This document shows, piece after piece, positions 2,819 to 52,636 of a stretch of DNA of 64,000 nucleotides (position 1 is the stretch's first letter; each line of letters starts with the position of its first letter). The position numbers were made by a program, and so were the translations under genes. The DNA lies in the NCBI GenBank assembly GCA_963575645.1, contig OY754467.1:39615108-39679107 (forward strand), given 5' to 3'. The notes under the pieces are model-generated. The model ran no database searches. It saw nothing but the letters and a program-made list of their open reading frames with translations, and was not told the DNA's origin. This DNA comes from Xanthostigma xanthostigma (Eukaryota > Arthropoda > Insecta > Raphidioptera > Raphidiidae).

Positions 2819-3334
2819 GAAAAACATATTTACGAATTATTGCTTTTATTTCTCAGATAATTTTCGATATATTCGACGTCAGCGGTTTTGCGTTTTGGTC
2901 GTAGATTTTATAATATTAAATAATGTACGTTTATATATAGGTTAGGGTTGTATGTGTACATTGAATCACATGCAAACTTGCAATTCACTGCAGCAAAGCT
3001 CGTCAGACGCCATGTAACGTAACTATAGTTTAGACTTTTGAAGCTTTCAAACTTTTGTAATTTTGTACCACTCAATAAAAACCTAAAAAAAGTTACGTAA
3101 CCTATAGGTATATATACCCGGTAATAATAGTTTATGTATGTATTAAATGTAATCCGTTATTTTATGTGGGGGGTTGTGACATTATGAAAAAACGAGAGTC
3201 AGCAGCAAACACACGAGCCATAAAAACACTACGTTCGAGATACTTACTACATTTTTTGCACGTGCCTGTTTTTCACATCATAGCAATATATCTGACGGCA
3301 GGTGTCAACATCGTGGATGGCGATATTATATTTC
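2819..3334. other. Unassigned spacer
   Basis: Holds one 76-residue open frame on the plus strand with no recognisable domain. Nothing else supported. Confidence 0.45.
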
Positions 3335-3699
3335 ACTGGCGGTCCCGCCCGGTTTCACCCGGATGCAAAAGAACGAATGGAAGGGGAGGGACATGAGTAC
3401 ACACAATATTAGTTTACCGAGATGAATGTTGTGTCCAAATTTCATGATGTTCGGAGTGACCGTTCAAAAGTTCTTGTCGGGCGGACAAATTCTGAGTTAC
3501 AGTTTGCAACATTTTTCATTGATGCTCCGCTCCTATTGGTCGTAGCGTAATGTTATATAGCCTATAGCCTTACTCGATAAATGGACTATCCAACAAAAAA
3601 CAATTTTTTTTTCAATTCGAATCAGTAGTTTCAGAGATTACCGCATTCAACCAACCAACCAAACAAACAAAATATTCTGCTTTATATATTAATATAGAT
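3335..3699 (-). mobile_element. Helitron-like family A, copy 2 (near full length)
   Basis: Runs from the CTAG-type end (CTGGCGGTCCCGCCCGG, one base off) through GATGAATGTTGTGTCCAA and the TATAGCCTTACTCG motif to TATATTAATATAGA. Length about 365 bp, which sets the family length. Non-coding. Confidence 0.8.
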
Positions 3700-4340
3700 T
3701 TGCGTTCCTTACAAAAAATATGCCAGCCTTGTGTCGCTTTGCTGTCTTTTCTCACCTTATATAATTAAAGTGACAGATCGCTTTTGGAAACTACTGTTGG
3801 AATAAAATCGTATATGTATTTTTATTTAACTTTACGCACTAGTGCGAAACCGGAAAAAGTTTAACGTCTGCATAAAAATTGTGATTATAATAAAATTTTG
3901 GGTATTCAAACAGACATTTTTGACTTCTACTGTGTACAGGTTTTCACTTACAAGTTTTAAGTACTTTTATCGCATAGAGATCGTTTCATAACAAAATAAT
4001 TACGTCGAGAAAAACAATTGAATATCAATAACAAAACACTGTTCTGAACTTAAGCATCACGAAAAGTATAAAAGAAATCTTACCTATAAGTAGCTTTCAT
4101 ATAGTTTCTTATTTTCCATGCTTTAGTCGTGATTCGTGACTCACATTCTTTTATTTTTAGTGACATCGTTGTTTTTGTTTTGTTTAATAACATGATATTG
4201 ACTTTCAATGTTGCCAACTTAGAGGAATTTTTACTAAATGATGACATTTATGCATGTCATCTATTTTTACGTGGAATTGTTTTCCATTTAGTATACTGTG
4301 TCTTTGTTTTAATTTAGTCCTTCCAACGCCTTCACTGACG
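3700..4340. other. Unassigned AT-rich spacer
   Basis: Two overlapping short open frames of 62 and 73 residues, without motif or splice support. I treat them as chance. Confidence 0.45.
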
Positions 4341-4355
4341 TGGAAATGTAATGCG

Positions 4356-4439
4356 GTGGAGCCGAAGACTCCACTACTGCTTCGCGAGAAGCAGCTATTT
4401 GTTTCATCTCAATCGCGTGTGGAGCCGCCGGTAGCGGCT
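4356..4439. repeat. Three consecutive 6-bp-stem hairpins
   Basis: GTGGAG/CTCCAC (4356-4374), CTGCTT/AAGCAG (4377-4394) and AGCCGC/GCGGCT (4423-4439) are each perfect stems with 5-7 base loops. Downstream, CAAATCGGTCCAGCAGTTCC resembles Helitron-like or other interspersed repeat bodies. This may therefore be the structured end of an element rather than a host RNA. Confidence 0.6.
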
Positions 4440-4734
4440 AGTAGAGTATGTGGTTGCTTAATTGAGACGACTTAAATGTTTCATTCAAATCGGTCCAGCA
4501 GTTCCTTAAACAGTCGCAATCGTATGTTCGAACATATGTATGAAAAATTGAGAATCAGTTGTTTAAAATCGTCTGCTTTTGCATTATCAGATACAAAAAT
4601 TTATTGTAGTATTAGGGTTACAGTTAATTGATGGATTTATAATAAGAAAATAATATCGCAAAAATAAATATTGTATAGGGAATTACAATTTTTGCATCAT
4701 TATCATCGGGATAATACGTTATTAATAAATTATA

Positions 4735-5025
4735 CCAGCTGTGAGGTGTTTAAAGTTGCAGTATTTAAAAGAAAATGTTCGCATTTCCTCTACCAATTAC
4801 GTCACCGGGGGGCAGTGCATCCCAATAAAAATTGTGTTACAATACAAATCTGGAAGATCCTCGGTAAGATGTTTTTCCAGTAATATACAAGAAAGTAATA
4901 ATGTATAATTTAATTACTATACCAGATGTTTCAATCCGCTGCAGCATTTAAAATAAAAAAAATCCCCATTATCCCCACTTGTTGTGCCGGGGGCAATACA
5001 CCCCAATGATTATAAATCATTAGCG
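4735..5025. repeat. Diverged direct duplication, ~110-bp unit
   Basis: The segment 4735-4845 (ATACCAGCTGTGAGGTG, GCAGTATTTAAAAGAAAA, CGGGGGGCAGTGCATCCCAA) is repeated less exactly at 4917-5025 (ATACCAGATGTTTCAATC, GCAGCATTTAAAATAAAA, CGGGGGCAATACACCCCAA). It is an old tandem duplication of unknown origin. Confidence 0.6.
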
Positions 5026-5030
5026 CATTG

Positions 5031-6994
5031 CTAACACGTAAATTGGATTTAACAGTATTACACCATTTGTATAAATATTTCGTCGCTCTGCAGATGTAGG
5101 TATTTAACAGTTTTGACGCTTACGCGTTCAATTCATTAGCAGAGTAGGAACGCCCGAAGTTATTTTTCTGCCAGTACCAAGTTTATATTATTTTGTCATC
5201 TTCGACCGCGTCCAGTCTAATGTTCTACATGACATGACGGTTCACACAACATTGAATAATTATAGATTGCAACGTTTTCGTGAAATTAATTTCTTAACAT
5301 ATCTACTACAATAGTTACCTGTAGAATAAATATATAATGCACTTATACGCCTTACACTTTTTGTTGAATATTTTGACGTCCACCCAAAACAACGACAGAT
5401 GGCGCCCAATTGCACACACAATTTCCGCTAACTTTAATGTTTTACAACTATACACTTCATAAAAGGTTAATAGACAACTCATAAATAAGTTCACAAGAGC
5501 AAACTGTAGATGTAATACTCTACGTTTATAGGTGAGGTATTATGATCAATGTGGCAGCCATTATTATTTTATCAGACGAATAAATATTTATACCTCCGAA
5601 GTAAGACAGAATAGATTTATATCTGCAGTAAACATAATTATGTTTGGTGAATTGAATTATCGCTAATTATTCGGGGGAATAGCTACCTGAAGAACAAAAT
5701 ATGAACTGAATAAGTAACTACTTACGTTCGGTGAATATGGCCATTAGAGAAGTATTTGTGAAAAATTATGATTTAAGACAGTTCAGTAACAGAGATTTAA
5801 TTCAGTTTAATTTAATTGGATTGTATATTTTGTTATTGAGTATAGGATATATAAGAATTTAACTTTAAAGTCCCTTAGTAAGTAACTTATTATTTATCAA
5901 GTCACAGCATTATGTCTACATTATGTACCTAGATATCACTAGAAGTTAAATCATGTCATTTTTTTGATAAGATATAAAAATTTCATAAAAACTTCTTTTA
6001 TTGAATGATAAAATACTTTATCAATTGAAGTTTATTCTGTGACCAATGTTGACAAAGATTTGTTATTATTGTGTACATATTTAAAACTAGATTTCAAGAT
6101 TCGTCCGGGCAGATACTCAAGCCCAACAAATCTCGTATATCATTTTACTGTATCTCATATATGTAAGTAGTTATAGTTTATCCAACCTACCTCATTTAGA
6201 ATCAAACTGTCATAAATGTTACAATTATACTGATTATGAAGGGCTATTTTAGTTTATAGGGGGTACGTGCCAAAAATACTATACGTATCTAGTGCATAAT
6301 GGTATGAATTAAGTAACTACATAATATATATAAAAGAGCTACTATCTTTTCATTTTGAAGGTAGAAGAATCAGAATCTGACTTCATGCTGGACAAGATTT
6401 TTTGACCTTATACCATACCTCCTATTTTACATGAAAATAAAAAAAAATGTCGTTGCAATGAAAATATTAAAAACGTATACAAATTATTTCTGCAGGGAAA
6501 CAGATATGAACGTTTTTTATGTTGCAAAACAAATATTATAATTAAGAGAAGTTCATATTACCTATTTAAAACTGATAATATCATTTTTATGTCAGCTGAA
6601 TTATGTCTTCAGATTGTTTCGTATGATTGCATTGTTACAAATACGTGAGTAAAAACTATTAAATTAAAAAAAACGATGCCAAATTGTCTGTTTTTTTTTA
6701 ATAAAATACCAGCTTCGCCCGAATTAGTAGATTACCTATTAAAGATAGAAATATTATGCTGCAGCGATCTTTCTTATATAATAATAGCCGTATACTATTT
6801 ACTCGGCGTTGTTTTTTATTTATTATTCCTTTAATTAATTTATTCATTTTTAAGTAAATTAATAATTTATTAAATTACTTTCGCAATCAGAAGAAGTCTG
6901 CATGGGATACCCGTTCGCGCATGTATGCCCGCACGACATCGACTGCATTAAACTTTTCCTTCATCCTCACTTCGGTGCAATCAACAATTAGAAA
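5031..6994. other. Long AT-rich spacer
   Basis: About 2 kb without an open frame over 60 codons. I recognise no element, RNA or repeat shared with the rest of the window. Confidence 0.55.
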
Positions 6995-7145
6995 ACCCTA
7001 TCCCTATATCTAAAATCTCGCTAAAAATATCTGTAGCTAAAAATCTACTGGTTTTTAGGCTGTGTGTGCCCATGGATACGTTTTATTAGTGACCTTTAAA
7101 CTATAAAATAAATATAGTTAAAAAAACTAAAAAACATCCTTTTAT
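6995..7145 (-). repeat. Interspersed repeat family I, copy 1
   Basis: Matches the inverse of 55380-55525: CCCTATATCTAAAATCTC, GCTAAAAATCTACTGGTTTT and GTGACCTTTAAACTATAAAA. The boundary with the following foldback is not clear. Confidence 0.6.
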
Positions 7146-8254: not shown

Positions 8255-8512
8255 TCAATGTTGGAAGATTAAAAAGGAAGAATCCCGATGGCATAGGATC
8301 GATGAAACAAAGCAAATACTGAAGGTTTTTATTGCATTTTATTGTCTGACGTTTCGGAAATCTGTATGCCATCTTCGGAGAATCAATGCTGTCTGTTTTC
8401 TCAGTATTGTTGTTATGTATAAAATAACATAACAACAATACTGAGAAAACAGACAGCATTGATTCATCGATCCTATGCCACCAGGATTTTTCCTTTTTAA
8501 TCTTCCAATAAT
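8255..8512. mobile_element. Foldback with hammerhead-like core (Penelope/retrozyme-like)
   Basis: The outer arm 8255-8303 pairs with 8462-8512, and the inner arm 8380-8419 with 8425-8464 (AATCAATGCTGTCTGTTTTC). The left side carries an extra 75 bp. Within it, on the minus strand, CCGAAGATGG ... CCGAAACGTC resembles the hammerhead core CUGANGA ... GAAA, with one core change (C for U). Such cores are known in the terminal repeats of Penelope-like elements. Confidence 0.5.
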
Positions 8513-14821: not shown

Positions 14822-15087
14822 AATCTTTGATTAACGTCTGAATAGAACTCTTCAAATAAATAAAATTGTCGACCAATTTTTCTCAGACCAATATATTGAC
14901 AAAAAATAATAAAACTACAAATCAAGATGACGTTTCATCCGGATTTGGATCTTCTTCAGAAATATCTAAAAAATATAAAAATTAATTAGTATTAAATTAT
15001 TTATTATCTAATAGAAATCACGAAATTTTTATTATTTTTTGTCAATATATTGGTCTGAGTAAAATTGGTCGACAATTTTATTTATTA
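14822..15087 (-). mobile_element. Hammerhead-bearing foldback (Penelope/retrozyme-like), copy 1
   Basis: Ends ATCTTTGATTAACGTCTGAA and AATTGTCGACCAATTTTTCT, with the latter returning inverted (AAAATTGGTCGACAATTTTA) at the right. Arms of about 70-80 bp flank a ribozyme-like core. Related copies are at 32722-33931, 44325-44545 and 44640-44850. No protein frame, so it is non-autonomous. Confidence 0.6.
14927..14959 (-). ncRNA. Hammerhead-ribozyme-like core
   Basis: The minus strand reads CTGAAGA, then stem II ATCC/GGAT around loop AAATCC, then GAAACGTC. The conserved hammerhead residues CUGANGA and GAAA are all present, followed by a GUC cleavage triplet as in minimal forms of Penelope-like elements. 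Helix III is very short, so single units may cleave poorly. Activity is inference. Confidence 0.5.
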
Positions 15088-15366
15088 TTAAGATGATTAT
15101 TGAAGAAAATCAGGCCGACTGGGAGCTTTCATCGAAAACGCTGCCTAATCCATTTGAGATATTATAACAAAACAATGTATAGTGGAATTGTTCCTCTTTT
15201 ATAGGTCTACAGAAAAGTCCGCGATGGCATATGGCTATTTTTTAAGGATAGTTTACTGTACCTGTTTTAATGTTAAACGCTTTTCGTGGATATCAATTTT
15301 GCAACGTAAGTCGACGAAAAGACGGTGGAAATCCATAAATTCGAGCGAAGCCGAACCGGGCCGCTA

Positions 15367-20445: not shown

Positions 20446-22530
20446 CAGTGCCTCACGTTTTCACAAAAACTGAGACATTGTTACTTTTAATGTACATTTT
20501 TTTTCAATTTCAAAAATATTCTGCTTCTAACGTGTACAATAATTTGGAAAATGCGCAAATACCAATTTAGAAATAATTATTCTTATACAGTAAACCCTCA
20601 TATAATACCGTATTGTTCCAATATAACCCTTTGTAGTGCAAAATCGTGTGATACGGTACTTAGAAACAACACAGAAAGGGGACAGGCTTTATTTTGTTAA
20701 CTGCCAGAAACTATAAAAACAGACCTAGTCATTACATAATTCTCAATTAATAACTTTCCAATTACATACTAACAGTTTGCTCGGTGTACAGACAATTATT
20801 TTTACCGATAACTATAGTGAAACGTGGAAGTATACGAAAAGCATATCGGTACACGCATTTAGATTATATTGATTTATTGCAAGAGAAAAAGTGCATCTCA
20901 ATTTCCATTTTATTAAATGTTCGGAAAAAATTCCAGCCAATTGGGCGACGGGACCATTCCAACTTCAAAACTGTTGACATTTGATTATAATAAAGAAAAT
21001 AAAATTTCTGATATCGCGTGAGGTGACGCGGGTAATGGCTAGTATTCAATATATTTTTCAAATTCAGACGTTAATCAAAGATTTCAATATGATATTTAAC
21101 ATTACAGCTCTATTTAAATACCTAAAAGAAATAAACAAATATAAAGAAATTTAATGGAATATTGAAAATAGATAATAATAAATTAATATACATACCTACA
21201 TATAAATTGTACTTACCTGAAATCTGAATATGTTACTTATTTAATATTTATACTTATTACTTACCATATTATGTATTTGTTTTTGCGATAATGGCCTTAG
21301 TTGCTGATTCGCTTATTTTGTTTTTAAAATAAAAAAAAAAAAAAAAATATGATATTTGCTATTCGTTGCCATGGTTACCTACATAATATGTTCACGTCAT
21401 GTAAAAATTAATCAATGCATGCCTAACTAGTTTATTTCTGACAGATCTATATAAAACAAAAGAGCGGCTGTCTTTTTTTTATTTTCCAAATATTTCCGAA
21501 ATTATAAAGTTTAGAAAAAAAAAATTAACGAAACTTTCTTGAAAATATAAATAGAATAATAAGCCGTTATGAAAAGTGTACCATTATTATATAAAAACAC
21601 CGTTATAGTATATATCTCTTCTGCGCATGCGCCGTTTTTCCCCAAAAACAATAGGGCTCTACCAAAATCCCAAAATTTGGTTTCAATCCGCTTATCCGTT
21701 TGACCGGTATCGTGTTCACAAACTAACAGACTCACCGACTAACAGACGCACAGAGTTTTTCCAAAAATATGTTTTTTGGATTCGGGGGACCTCAATACGA
21801 AAAGATATTGTAAAATTTTTTAAAAGTGATCTTTGACTTAAACTAGTACCATTCCCCACTAATTGTGGGTTGGAATGGTAAAATAGCAACAAAATAGTTG
21901 TACTAATTACAATAATGAAAATACTCAAACATGCCATTCTGAAACAGCTGATACACTGGAATGCGCTCACACAGTAGTACCAACTGTATAATAATGGAAT
22001 TTCAGGCAAGACGTTCCCACTAGCCAATTCCTCTGAAAACTACCGCATTATGCAATGCTTTTTCACAGCTCAAATTGCTCGTAACATTGGCAATGACGTG
22101 TTAGTCCTACTCCTATGCTCTACTATATGAGAGTTTCCCCTTGTCCTGCTTCTTCCGGTTCTACCAGACGAACTTCCTTGAGGATATCTAAATTGACGTT
22201 CACAGAAACGAAGCCGCGGAATCAGGCTATAGTTAATTAGTGTCAGTAAGATGCGAATCCAACGGCAACGTGAATAATGTCTCTAAGCTTATGAATATGA
22301 TTTATGAATTATCCCTTGATGGGTGTATCCTACAATAGTATCTAGAGAGCAACCAGTGAGAATTCACCATCTCACTTCTCTATAGTTTCTACTTTCTACC
22401 TACACGATACCCTGCTGAGTTAGTTTTAAAATAACACTCCGCCAGGGTTGACAAAATCATGATTTTTACAATTTAAATTAAATGAGTGTTTTTTTGTTCA
22501 AAACGTGTATTTAATCTACGAATAATGCAA
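20446..22530. other. Mostly unassigned spacer with element fragments
   Basis: TACAGTAAACCCTCATATAA at 20588 resembles a pogo/Tigger end without a partner. A Penelope-type foldback fragment lies near 21065 (CAGACGTTAATCAAAGATTT). CCAAAATTTGGTTTCAATCC at 21673 recurs inverted near 62855. Block 22025-22145 is shared with 26545-26665. A 103-residue minus-strand frame (21716-22027) has no domain I recognise. Confidence 0.45.
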
Positions 22531-23119
22531 ATCCAAATCTTCTTGGCTTCCGGGCTTGTATGCCGTGGTCCATTGGTATTACTACCTGACGTTTCGTCTG
22601 CAACTGCGGTAGACATTATCAAAAGACGTGTGGTAGCGGGCAAAGTGGTACTTCTAGGCTTCTCACATGTAAGTGTGTCGACAAGTGTGGTACTTCCGTT
22701 TTTTTATGATCAGCGTGCTCGTGTTCTCTACTCGGTCGTTGTATGCTCTTCTGTGATTGGTCGTTCCATTCAGTGGGTTGGTATTGCACAGTGCTGGTGT
22801 CCAGGTTTTACTTAGATTCAAACCTTCATCTTTGCGGTTGAGTAAAACCTGGACACCAGCACTGTGCAATACCAACCCACTGATGGGAACGACCAAACAC
22901 AGAAGAGCATACTACGACCGAGTAGAGAACATGAGCACGCTGACCATAAAAGACGGAAGTACCGCACTTGTCGACACACTTACCTGTGAGCTGCCTAGAA
23001 GGACACTTTGCCCGCTACCACATCGCTTTGATAATGTCTACCGCAGTTGTAGACGAAACGTCAGGTAGTAATACCCATGGGCCATGGCATACAAGCCTGC
23101 AAACCAAGAAGATTTGGAT
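22531..23119. mobile_element. 590-bp foldback with hammerhead-like cores in both arms
   Basis: Arms 22531-22811 and 22842-23119 are inverted copies around a 30-bp loop (apex CCAGGTTTTAC/GTAAAACCTGG). Each arm carries GTCT...AGAC forming stem II, followed by GAAACGTC, and preceded by TTGATAA where a hammerhead has CUGANGA. It is probably two opposed terminal repeats of a Penelope-like element or a retrozyme pair. Four overlapping short frames of 77-109 residues arise from the repeat and show no reverse transcriptase or GIY-YIG motif. Confidence 0.65.
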
Positions 23120-32261: not shown

Positions 32262-32717
32262 ATCACAAAAGCGAACACTGTTCCTCAATATGTATACATG
32301 CTCAGCTAAACTTTTGCACCGTATAATGAATAATTCAAATTCGAACCACTAATGTGAATTACAAGTGCAAATCAAATACAACACGCTTTCCGGTGTTAGA
32401 GAATATCAAAAATGAACTGCATGTAGTGTGTATCCTACGAGTATATATGTATTTGATCCGCTTCTGCTGAAACCGTTGAATGCGGCAATGGATGTGGATT
32501 ATATAATATCTAATGATCGTATTTGTAACTCAATACGTTCATCTTCTCCTATAGTATCTCTTTCTCTCTCCCTGCTTCTTTTTTTAACAAGTATGAAAAA
32601 TTACATCAGAAATAGTTGATTTTTATTAAATTTGTATTTTCCCTTTTTTGTTGTACAAATGTTTTAAATGATTAAATATTTTGACATAAAATAAGTCCTC
32701 TCGTAATGCAAATAACT
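32262..32717. other. Unassigned spacer
   Basis: A 63-residue open frame without motif. Nothing else seen. Confidence 0.45.
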
Positions 32718-32803
32718 ATTTCAAATCTTTGATTAACGTCTGAATAGAACTCTTCAAATGAATAAAATTATCGACCAATTTTTCTCAGACCATATATATT
32801 GAC

Positions 32804-33280
32804 AAAAACTTTTTAACAAAAAAATTAAACCGCCGAAAAACTGAAAAGCAAAAAATAATAAATCTTTTTATTTAACTAAGTTCTATTTAAGTAGTTGAAC
32901 GTATGTGACAGTCTAGTATATCTAAGTAATTTTGAGTCGGCGTCAACAATCCTTGCGTTCACGAAGTTAATGTCAGCGACAGAGCCCGAACGGGCACACA
33001 CTGAGGGCACACGTCTTTGCGAGTGGTCGTGTGGAGAGCGCATGTTTGGAATGTTAATGTTTATCGCTGGAGATTTCACGTATCATTGTTAATTTGATTT
33101 GGTTATTTCTTTTAGTGATCTTTTGTTCATTGATTGTTTGACGCCGACTCAAAATTACTTAGATATACTAGACTGTCACATACGTTCAACTACTTAAATA
33201 GAACTTAGTTAAATAACAAGATTTATTATTTTTTGCTTTTCAGTTTTTCGGCGGTTTAATTTTTTTGTTAAAAAGTTTTT
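32804..33280. repeat. Nested foldback, 143-bp arms
   Basis: Arms 32804-32946 and 33138-33280 are almost perfect inverses (TTAAACCGCCGAAAAACTG, GTAGTTGAACGTATGTGACA, TTTTGAGTCGGCGTCAA). The central 191 bp is richer in GC (GCCCGAACGGGCACACACTG). High arm identity suggests a young element. Short frames over it are not genes. Confidence 0.85.
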
Positions 33281-33299
33281 ATTTTATAGTTTTTTGTGG

Positions 33300-33725
33300 C
33301 TATATAATTTATAATTGTAATACACAACTCAGCATGAAAATCTGTGAGTGAACAATAAATCACCCCTTTTTTCCCACCCTTAGGGTAGGAATTTTTTTCA
33401 AATTTATATAAGACTAACCTCGAGGTATACCCTATCCAATAAAAAAATAATTATCAAAATCGGACTACTCTGTAAAAAGTTATGTGAGGTCATACATTAC
33501 AATTAATGAGTGAACAATCAATCATCCCCTGTTTTCCTACCCTTAGGGTTGGAATTTTTTTACCAAATTTATATGGGACCAACTTCGGGGTATACCCTTT
33601 CAAACAAAAAAATAATTATCAAAATCGGACTACTCTGTAAAAAGTTATGCGTGGTCATACATAAAAAAAAAAAAAATATACGCGTCGACTTGAGAACCTC
33701 CTCCGTTTTTGTTTTTCGTCGGTTA
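33300..33725 (-). mobile_element. Interspersed element family M with internal ~163-bp duplication
   Basis: On the minus strand it begins TTAACCGACGAAAAACAAAA and GGAGGAGGTTCTCAAG, a start common in insect genomes. The block CCCACCCTTAGGGTAGGAAT ... AATCGGACTACTCTGTAAAA occurs twice (33355-33497, 33518-33662). Non-coding. Confidence 0.6.
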
Positions 33726-33760
33726 AAAAATAATAAAAATACAAATCAATATAACACAGG

Positions 33761-33794
33761 ATGACGTTTCGATCCGGATTTGGATCTTCTTCAG
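33761..33794 (-). ncRNA. Hammerhead-ribozyme-like core, best match
   Basis: The minus strand reads CTGAAGA, stem II GATCC/GGATC with loop AAATCC, then GAAACGTC. All invariant core positions are kept and stem II is a perfect 5 bp. It is homologous to 14927-14959 and, in eroded form, 44428-44459. Flanking helix I complementarity is weak by eye, so in vivo cleavage is uncertain. Confidence 0.55.
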
Positions 33795-34030
33795 AAATAT
33801 CTAAAAAATATAAAAATTAATTAGTATTAAGTTATTTATTAACTAATTATATTGATTTGTATTTTTATTATTTTTTGTCAATATATATAGTCTGAGAAAA
33901 ATTGGTCGACAATTTTATTCATTCAAATAACTATTTCTTTACTAGTTTACTTGAAAACTGCAAAATGACTACCGCTAGACCGATTTAAAAAAAAATTCTT
34001 TCTGATTATAAGTACGTTAATACCCTAAAG

Positions 34031-43900: not shown

Positions 43901-44324
43901 GTGTCGCGTAAACACAACAGTAGATTAAAAAAAAAACACTAGATTCAAATTAGTTTACAAAAAGTATATAATTTACTTTTAGCACTTGCACAAATTCATT
44001 ACTTATAGTCAGTTTTGACAGGTTCTGTTTCAGACTCACTACCAAAATCTTCATCACTCTGCTAAGATGTCATTACAATAAATTATATCTTTTTTAAACT
44101 AAAACATTAGAAGAATATTAGTAGGTATATAAAATTCTTGACACTTAATTATGTTGACTTACTTGCTTAGCTGCGTAAGATAATTATTTTTCTGAATATA
44201 AACAATAATATTTACATGTATGAAAAACACAAATACTATTTAGTATCAAGGAGGTGTTTTGGAGGTACCCTCCCCCCATCCGAAATGCTTTAGCCAACCC
44301 ACCGTTTTATACATACTTAAAATC
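43901..44324. other. Unassigned spacer
   Basis: AT-rich, no signal noticed. Confidence 0.5.
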
Positions 44325-44545
44325 TTTGATTAACGTCTGATTAGAATTCTTCAATAAATAAAATTATCGACCAATTTTTCAGACAAATTTGCAAAAAATA
44401 TAATTATATTTCAATAAATTTACGTTTCTGAAGAAGATCCAAATCTGGACCGAAATGTAAATATATTGAATTTATCTATATTTTTTGTCATCATAATTGT
44501 CTGAAAAATTGGTAGATAATTTTATTTATTGAAGTATATTTTTAA
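44325..44545 (+). mobile_element. Hammerhead-bearing foldback, copy 3
   Basis: AATCTTTGATTAACGTCTGA and TCGACCAATTTTTCAGACAA open the element, and the inverse TTGTCTGAAAAATTGGTAGA closes it. The core at 44428-44459 reads CTGAAGA ... GAAA with a weaker stem II. Confidence 0.6.
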
Positions 44546-44639
44546 TTACATTCTTCAGAACCATTAAACGTAAATGTCTGTTTATTATGCAAAAGGTATC
44601 TATGTGAAAGATAAGTTCATGTCTGAAAAGCATACTGGT

Positions 44640-44850
44640 TGTTGAGCGTCTATATTAACAAAAATAAATAATAATAATTCAGTACATTAACGTTCCGGTC
44701 CGGATTTGGACCTCCTTCAGAATTGAGCTAAAAAAATACAAAAAACAAACGCTTAAGTATTGAATTATTATTATTATATTATTTTTGTTAATATAATTGT
44801 CTGAAAAATTGGTCGATAATTTTATTTATTGAATACTTATATTTAAATAT
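44640..44850 (-). mobile_element. Hammerhead-bearing foldback, copy 4 (eroded)
   Basis: Arms around ATTAACAAAAATAAATAATA and its inverse. On the minus strand the core reads CTGAAGG with stem GGTCC/GGACC and then GGAACGT, two core changes. Confidence 0.5.
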
Positions 44851-52507: not shown

Positions 52508-52636
52508 CTATATATAAGAGAAATCGCAAAATTAACTGTCGTGGGCACTGTAGAGTAATGTAACTCAGCCAATGCGAAATTGGTTGTTTCGGGTTCAAGT
52601 CCCGACAGTGACATTTAAATTTTTCTTATATATAAG
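52508..52636 (+). repeat. tRNA-like sequence inside a 17-bp inverted repeat
   Basis: The inverted repeats CTATATATAAGAGAAAT (52508-52524) and ATTTTTCTTATATATAAG (52619-52636) enclose 52538-52612. That core has a B-box-like GGGTTCAAGTCCC with a T-arm-like stem (TCGGG/CCCGA) and an anticodon-arm-like stem GCCAA/TTGGT. An ACTGTCG/CGACAGT pairing competes with a cloverleaf. No good acceptor stem and no U33. It is a tRNA pseudogene or a tRNA-containing MITE rather than a working tRNA. Confidence 0.45.

Follow-up and report, generated by a model that had tools for sequence, protein, structure and literature searches.

The four hammerhead-bearing foldbacks (at 14822, 32722, 44325 and 44640) of the window, i.e. 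the whole stretch of 64 000 nucleotides analysed here, are very probably solo insertions of inverted pseudo-LTRs (pLTRs) of a GIY-YIG-type Penelope-like retrotransposon (PLE). A large dispersed hammerhead family, that of these four foldbacks (hereafter family A), would thereby be traced to solo PLE pLTR insertions, with the reading frames in the same genome (623 Mb in 28 contigs were searched, the window lying on contig C4).

Anatomy of the window elements

The sequence-only reading had noticed the order of a hammerhead core in four related foldbacks, and this is borne out both by the sequence at 33763–33794 and by a covariance model, R1 (described below), that matches all four. On the minus strand, 33763–33794 reads CTGAAGA, A, GATCC, AAATCC, GGATC, GAAA and CGTC; the extra A that separates CTGAAGA from stem II was absent from the first reading. 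The copy at 14929–14959 (minus strand) has the same order with stem II short of one C, and the cores at 44421–44465 (plus strand; GAAATGTA) and 44682–44727 (minus strand; CTGAAGG, GGAACGTT) are eroded. A type I hammerhead is defined by the invariant core CUGANGA...GAAA and an NUH cut site. Both are present at 33763–33794 and 14929–14959 and neither eroded copy has this combination, so that the earlier count of two intact and two eroded copies is right for the core. The elements are laid out as follows:

32709–32722, no strand: left target-site duplication (TSD), CAAATAACTATTTC, identical to the 14 bases at 33924–33937, with a possible overlap between its last bases and the end of the element
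32724–33927, minus strand: whole element, very probably a solo head-to-head pLTR insertion of a PLE, later split (arm and tail alignment)
32724–32752, minus strand: optional 29-nt PLE tail at the 3′ end of the sense strand (tail match)
32753–32808, minus strand: first piece of the 3′ arm; with the tail, 94–95% identical over 71–78 nt to the leaders of L115 and L117
32809–33724, no strand: nested insertion (approx. 0.9 kb) in the 3′ arm, which stops and resumes in register (placed by eye, within a few bases)
33725–33762, minus strand: remainder of the 3′ arm, opening with the 3′ strand of stem I (sequence; alignment to other copies)
33763–33794, minus strand: hammerhead core with CTGAAGA, extra A, GATCC/GGATC, GAAA, palindromic stem III ACGT and C17 (R1)
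33846–33927, plus strand: inverted 5′ arm, tail-less (sequence and arm alignment)
33924–33937, no strand: right TSD, 14 bp, repeat of CAAATAACTATTTC
14822–15090, minus strand: second family-A element, 269 bp, no insertion, tail at the left end only, hammerhead at 14929–14959
44321–44838, no strand: compound family-A locus with two copies, hammerheads at 44421–44465 (plus) and 44682–44727 (minus)

The predicted cut site falls between 33763 and 33762, just before the 3′ strand of stem I. A unit size of approximately 220–270 bp had been proposed for all copies, which is wrong for the element at 32722: it spans 32724–33927, owing to the insertion of approximately 0.9 kb that splits its 3′ arm. The same insertion explains why the left end had been placed at 32722 and yet the core 1 kb away. 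The element at 14822–15090 is flanked by the duplication TATTACGATGATT/TATTAAGATGATT. At the compound locus, the outer ends have ATACTTA (7 bp) in common and the inner pairing 44321–44533 showed no convincing duplication; 44321–44838 is probably one family-A copy nested within another.

Several further features were observed in the window. The ends of the insertion at 32809–33724 resemble, by eye, short inverted repeats (TTAAACCGCCGAAAAAC / GTTTTTCGTCGGTTAA); it holds a 143-bp foldback with 99% identity, together with direct, diverged repeats of a longer unit, and the foldback at 32804–33280 lies mostly within it. A lone relic of the PLE tail, with two mismatches, occurs at 21058–21083 (plus strand), where no adjoining arm end was found. 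A tRNA-Ser (cga) was predicted by ARAGORN at 52544–52613.

Penelope-like frames and the hammerhead class

The foldbacks had been read as inverted arms with no protein, hence as a non-autonomous ribozyme family. This part did not survive the genome-wide comparison, in which they appear as PLE pLTR ends, an option that the first reading had set aside. Indeed, among 12 PLE upstream regions, the family-A arm and tail stand directly before the coding frame in L115, L117 and L119, the frames so preceded being at C6:37065474 (L117), C8:33812414 and C1:49488121. The window arms are 94–97% identical, over 64–91 nt, to the PLE leaders of L115 and L117, in both of which 28 nt separate the tail end from the start codon. 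The family-A hammerhead is found in L117 alone of the three leaders, since L115 and L119 stop short inside the arm. Hammerheads precede PLE frames in L111, L112, L113 and L117; in six of the 12 regions (L110, L114, L116, L118, L120 and L121), neither a hammerhead match nor a family-A arm was found. In L117 and L012, the C-terminus of a PLE frame lies just upstream of the hammerhead, which identifies the hammerhead segment as a pLTR; in L117, a single hammerhead has an ORF end upstream and an ORF start downstream. The arm and tail were also considered as a translated PLE N-terminus, a possibility rejected because the frame begins at a start codon 28 nt past the tail and is closed upstream of that codon or in the tail itself.

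On the protein side, five of 12 GIY-YIG loci, in four places (L065, L066, L068/L070 and L069), carry hammerheads of the same layout, as does L071. Pfam detected RVT_1 and GIY-YIG domains in the ORFs of L071 and L069, and matched neither RT nor GIY-YIG in the L122 frame (653 aa), a family-A partner. A piece of the family-A partner protein aligns to that of L071 with 33% identity over 555 aa (E 2e-67), both domains being covered; since L071 has RT and GIY-YIG, we infer that the partner has them too. Stops interrupt the match in two of the three partner frames (C6, one TAA; C8, one TAG and one TAA). The genome is rich in PLEs, with 75 scored matches to one PLE frame among 1250 candidates, tandem arrays included. 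L071 itself comprises a 300-bp direct repeat and inverted copies. In the window, tblastn with frame pieces of L071, L069 and L065 found no PLE coding relic (best E 0.35). As a separate observation, G000:C7:24097535-24111362 contains five tandem PLE frames of equal score, spaced 3097 bp apart.

Whether these cores belong to the hammerhead class was addressed by pattern, by model and by covariation. A core pattern search of the 64-kb window gave two matches against none in 100 shuffles, the two counting as one event because they are homologous. Genome-wide, CTGANGA..GAAACGTC was matched 6422 times and its reversed control 99 times. The former count spans several families, and most of the 100 matches listed are family A by stem II; this excess shows large repeat families and does not demonstrate a ribozyme. 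No hammerhead was reported by Rfam in the window, at the gathering threshold or at E ≤ 10. The same was true, at E ≤ 10, of ten loci that contain hammerhead-like sites, among them four with RT/GIY-YIG frames (L065, L068, L069 and L071). The covariance-model hit that had been called for was thus not obtained with Rfam, in the window or in the ten loci. This negative has little weight, as hammerheads beside PLE frames were missed likewise. The many miRNA matches that Rfam returned for the window and the ten loci are taken to be long foldbacks being matched.

We therefore turn to model R1, which was trained on 19 sequences from other families of the same genome, none from family A, drawn from PLE loci found via GIY-YIG and from pattern matches with other stem II sequences. 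Its alignment has 19 rows, 18 of them distinct, with near-identical copies kept, and covers approximately ten families by judgement. The copy at 33763–33794 scored 29.1 bits (E 4.1e-6, model positions 7–39 of 45), and the two eroded copies 22.6 and 21.2 bits (E 4e-4 and 1e-3). The match at 14922–14966 scored 15.8 bits (E 0.05) and, taken alone, is inseparable from other weak matches (0.026, 0.14 and 0.41); all these E-values are rough, and the list up to E 10 comprised 33 matches. Two other sites in the window were matched:

8341–8385, minus strand: hammerhead of another family (as in L044), with an eroded core, CCGAAGA (R1 35.1 bits, E 5.8e-8), a match expected since its family (L044, L036) is in the training set
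22581–22629, minus strand: weak hammerhead-like site (R1 E 0.026 and 0.14 with its partner at 23022–23069, plus strand)

The surroundings of both sites are themselves folded. Window positions 8261–8508 form a nested foldback with arms at 8261–8313/8456–8508 and 8375–8418/8427–8470 and with Rfam miRNA matches; 22531–23119 is a large foldback with several nested arms, in which the weak sites at 22581–22629 and 23022–23069 stand head to head.

Covariation supports both stems. Over 24 sites, some of them related (L036 with L044, and two from family B), stem I, formed between the sequence preceding CUGA and that following the cut site, had on average 2.67 paired bases against 1.23 with swapped partners, and stem II 4.1 against 2.0; in either case, none of 5000 swaps did as well. 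In the 19-row alignment, 86.4% of stem I and II cells were paired (48.1% shuffled), 68 cells were changed on both sides (21.9 shuffled) and the covariation score was 0.957 (0.209 shuffled; slid controls at most 0.221). On two of the five measures the alignment did no better than its shuffles, namely pairs changed on both sides (8 versus 7.7) and further pair types (24 versus 21.9). RNAalifold, unaided, returned the same two stems, stem I having three pairs and stem II five. These results, with the R1 matches to the window copies, support the assignment of the cores to a genuine hammerhead class, in which stems I and II covary over approximately ten otherwise unrelated families, and show that the genome contains a hammerhead class that Rfam did not report.

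Conversely, the motif might be fortuitous, or without ribozyme function, in a DNA foldback element. The silence of Rfam even at E ≤ 10 and the weak stem I of family A are what such a view would draw on, but it is hardly credible given a core common to some ten otherwise unrelated families with covarying stems, and given that R1, blind to family A, matches all four window copies. Against it also stands the count of CTGATGATG..CGAAAC, with 1799 matches against 16 when G8 is changed to C, most of the 100 matches listed coming from one repeat family. The classical layout lacking the extra base (CTGATGAG..CGAAAC) is rare here, with 54 matches against 22 for its reversed control.

Membership of the class is one matter and activity of family A another. 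Next to the core, stem I of its main form consists of a single contiguous pair, with a bulged AGA/TCT helix further out (by eye); its L055 subfamily has three contiguous pairs. Stem II is paired in 76–98% of 54 copies, position by position; these copies were picked by exact core, so that core constancy is uninformative there. Over 22 distinct stem II strings, own halves scored 0.836 against 0.806 for swapped ones, 34 of 2000 swaps being as good, and one C-G to T-A change that keeps the pairing occurs in four copies. The conservation of stem II expected in other copies was thus found across families, whereas within family A covariation is slight. Among 32 family-A copies picked by overall similarity, with no exact core required, CTGA is replaced by CTAA in two, the G of GAAA is missing from one, and a further copy shows a G-to-T change within CTGAAGA. 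Owing to the weak stem I, the slight covariation and the E of 0.05 at 14929, ribozyme activity of family A is doubtful, and the family may be inactive.

A single extra base lies between A9 and stem II, which the site sets chosen with the CTGATGATG pattern carry by design. It is also present on the GIY-YIG side (L065, L066, L068, L069 and L071) and before PLE frames (L111, L112, L113 and L117), as U in seven of these nine loci and as A in L113 and L117. With U, A9-U-G10.1 reads AUG. In family A the base is A in 53 of 54 copies, so that this AUG is missing from the window family, and the family-A PLE frame starts further on, at MSKQISGF. Stem III is self-complementary in several families (ACGU in family A, ACAUGU and ACGAUCGU by script; ACUAGU in L069 and L100 by eye), and the script found none in L096 and L102. 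Given its extra base and palindromic stem III (ACGU), any action of the family-A hammerhead would be as a dimer.

One tail per insertion and the proposed mechanism

Each scored family-A insertion appears to carry its tail at one end only. As scored, 50 of 51 end pairings had exactly one tail; once two L018 pairings are dropped, one outer end and one only bears the 29-nt tail in 49 of 49 elements. These pairings bridge two elements; they were removed with the result already in view, and one was the sole tail-less pairing. Pairing of left and right ends and calling of tails made no use of the hammerhead, and tail scores are bimodal (30–58 versus 8–18). The scope of the rule is family A: most scored loci were found via the core or via the stretch 33690–33900, and the 49 elements omit family-A copies with no partner end within 1.3 kb. 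A single intact hammerhead is present in 35 elements, of which 23 have the tail at the hammerhead-strand end and 12 have it at the inverted end; eight of the 49 have two hammerheads and six have no intact one. A TSD score of at least 10 was reached by 43 of the 49 elements, against one of 580 swapped flanks. TSD length varies, the commonest exact length being 13 bp (20/49).

This anatomy bears on the idea of a separate non-autonomous ribozyme family, retrozyme- or MITE-like, whose short RNAs would be cut by the hammerhead, circularised and copied in trans. A short template is suggested by the 164–468 bp of 47 of the 49 elements (20 loci, L072–L091, are short stretches that limit element size there), copies are in the thousands, and another family, at L039, has a 216-bp × 3 tandem array with a hammerhead. 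We nevertheless hold such a family to be very improbable. In the scored family-A elements, the inner halves stand head to head, and the tandem hammerhead-bounded units of retrozymes were not found; the insertions run through the predicted cleavage site, so that the template was uncleaved. The equal terminal inverted repeats and fixed TSD of MITEs or foldback DNA transposons are likewise lacking, the ends being unequal in 49 of 49 elements and the TSD variable. Moreover, the arm and tail belong to PLEs that have a reading frame, and a part of this frame is present in L012.

The L039 array (3062–3718) is a separate observation. Its three 216-bp units bear hammerheads with a long stem I, ACT/AGT plus GCATTT/AAATGC by eye, and it is a candidate retrozyme-like array.

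For the foldbacks as PLE insertions, we lean towards a scheme in which both target strands are primed, each from a different start site; it is reconstructed from finished insertions rather than from intermediates. The PLE protein would cut both target strands and prime reverse transcription on each, one strand being primed at the distal (outer) start site, which would leave the tail, and the other at the proximal (inner) start site, which would leave none. The template would be short leader RNAs, two molecules, whose two short cDNAs would join head to head into a palindrome of 160–470 bp. The hammerhead would be part of the PLE leader RNA and, as the insertions run through its cleavage site, would be uncut in the RNAs copied. 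If so, the one-tail rule offers a countable, testable signature of two-strand target priming by PLEs.

Several of these steps have counterparts in an anole PLE (PMC11167929). In vitro, cutting and extension occur on both strands of the target; reverse transcription begins at two start sites whose interval is the optional 30–40 bp tail, and insertion persists in hammerhead mutants. The hammerhead cleaves only with protein added, and no RNA ends were seen at its site. The start site of the anole enzyme in vitro is alike on both strands, so that this alone does not predict the one-tail rule. The later steps of PLE insertion are left there for validation. For rotifer PLEs, PMC3846280 describes inverted pLTRs of which one bears a 31-bp tail, as well as TSDs of 8–10 bp.

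For head-to-head arms, the same rotifer work proposes an origin by self-priming on an antisense template, in place of priming on both target strands, which we consider rather unlikely here. It would suit L071, where 3863–7014 is a perfect 1576-bp head-to-head palindrome with no spacer, beside an open PLE frame of 804 aa, and also the finding that, in 43 of 46 cases, the similarity between the two arms of an element exceeds the mean similarity to arms of other elements. Fold-back copying should however repeat one outer end, and the ends differ in 49 of 49 elements. Arm identity within an element is 96.5% (91.9% between elements), short of the 100% expected, and an arm's own partner is among its three closest arms in 17 of 46 cases only; later mutation explains part of both shortfalls.

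Within two-strand priming, the one-tail rule could reflect an asymmetric dimeric integration complex, in which two RNAs joined by the palindromic stem III would each prime one strand from its own start site. We regard this extension as improbable. Were it true, the hammerhead would serve PLEs first as an RNA dimer link, with cutting secondary, and the link would account for the self-complementary stem III kept in PLE hammerheads.

Comparison with known systems

PLEs with minimal hammerheads in their pLTRs were described by Cervera and de la Pena (2014) and Lunse, Weinberg and Breaker (2017), as related in PMC7761336, PMC6155905 and PMC11167929. PLE hammerheads, tails and inverted pLTRs are already known (PMC7761336, PMC6155905, PMC3846280 and PMC8969392). 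PMC7761336 places most minimal hammerheads of animal genomes in dispersed non-coding DNA and calls their role in PLEs ‘still a mystery’. In the literature searched, of which the texts were available in part and whose coverage stopped short of Lunse 2017, Cervera 2014 and Craig 2021, we found no statement of the exactly-one-tail rule, which may nevertheless be in print.

With the hammerhead PLEs, the window family shares a minimal type I hammerhead with no real helix III, sited in a pLTR, thousands of dispersed copies, RT and GIY-YIG domains, direct or inverted pLTRs, an optional tail of approximately 30 bp and a TSD. It differs from them in the strict single tail of the scored family, in a tail set outside the ORF, 28 nt ahead of the start codon, where theirs lies inside it, and in the extra base before stem II, which is A (AAG). 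Its commonest exact TSD of 13 bp also differs from the 8–10 bp of rotifer PLEs (PMC3846280).

The anole PLE, PAc (a Poseidon element of Anolis), likewise has a tail between two RT start sites and a hammerhead at the start of its coding region (PMC11167929). Its start codon is placed at the start of stem II (PMC11167929), the position of the AUG in many of the PLE hammerheads found here. PAc was studied in vitro, and the section consulted reports neither a one-tail rule nor solo insertions with head-to-head arms.

Metazoan non-LTR retrozymes resemble family A in their type I hammerhead and small, AT-rich, non-coding unit (PMC7229834). They are tandem repeats processed into circles (PMC7229834), whereas the family-A arms face each other head to head, were copied from uncut RNA and derive from an element with an ORF. 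The L039 array is a better retrozyme candidate than family A.

De la Pena and Flores reportedly described, in 2001, a viroid hammerhead with an extra nucleotide in its core. The viroid is reportedly chrysanthemum chlorotic mottle viroid, in which the extra base follows A9. Its hammerhead shares with the present ones a single extra nucleotide between A9 and stem II, in a viroid and not in a retroelement.
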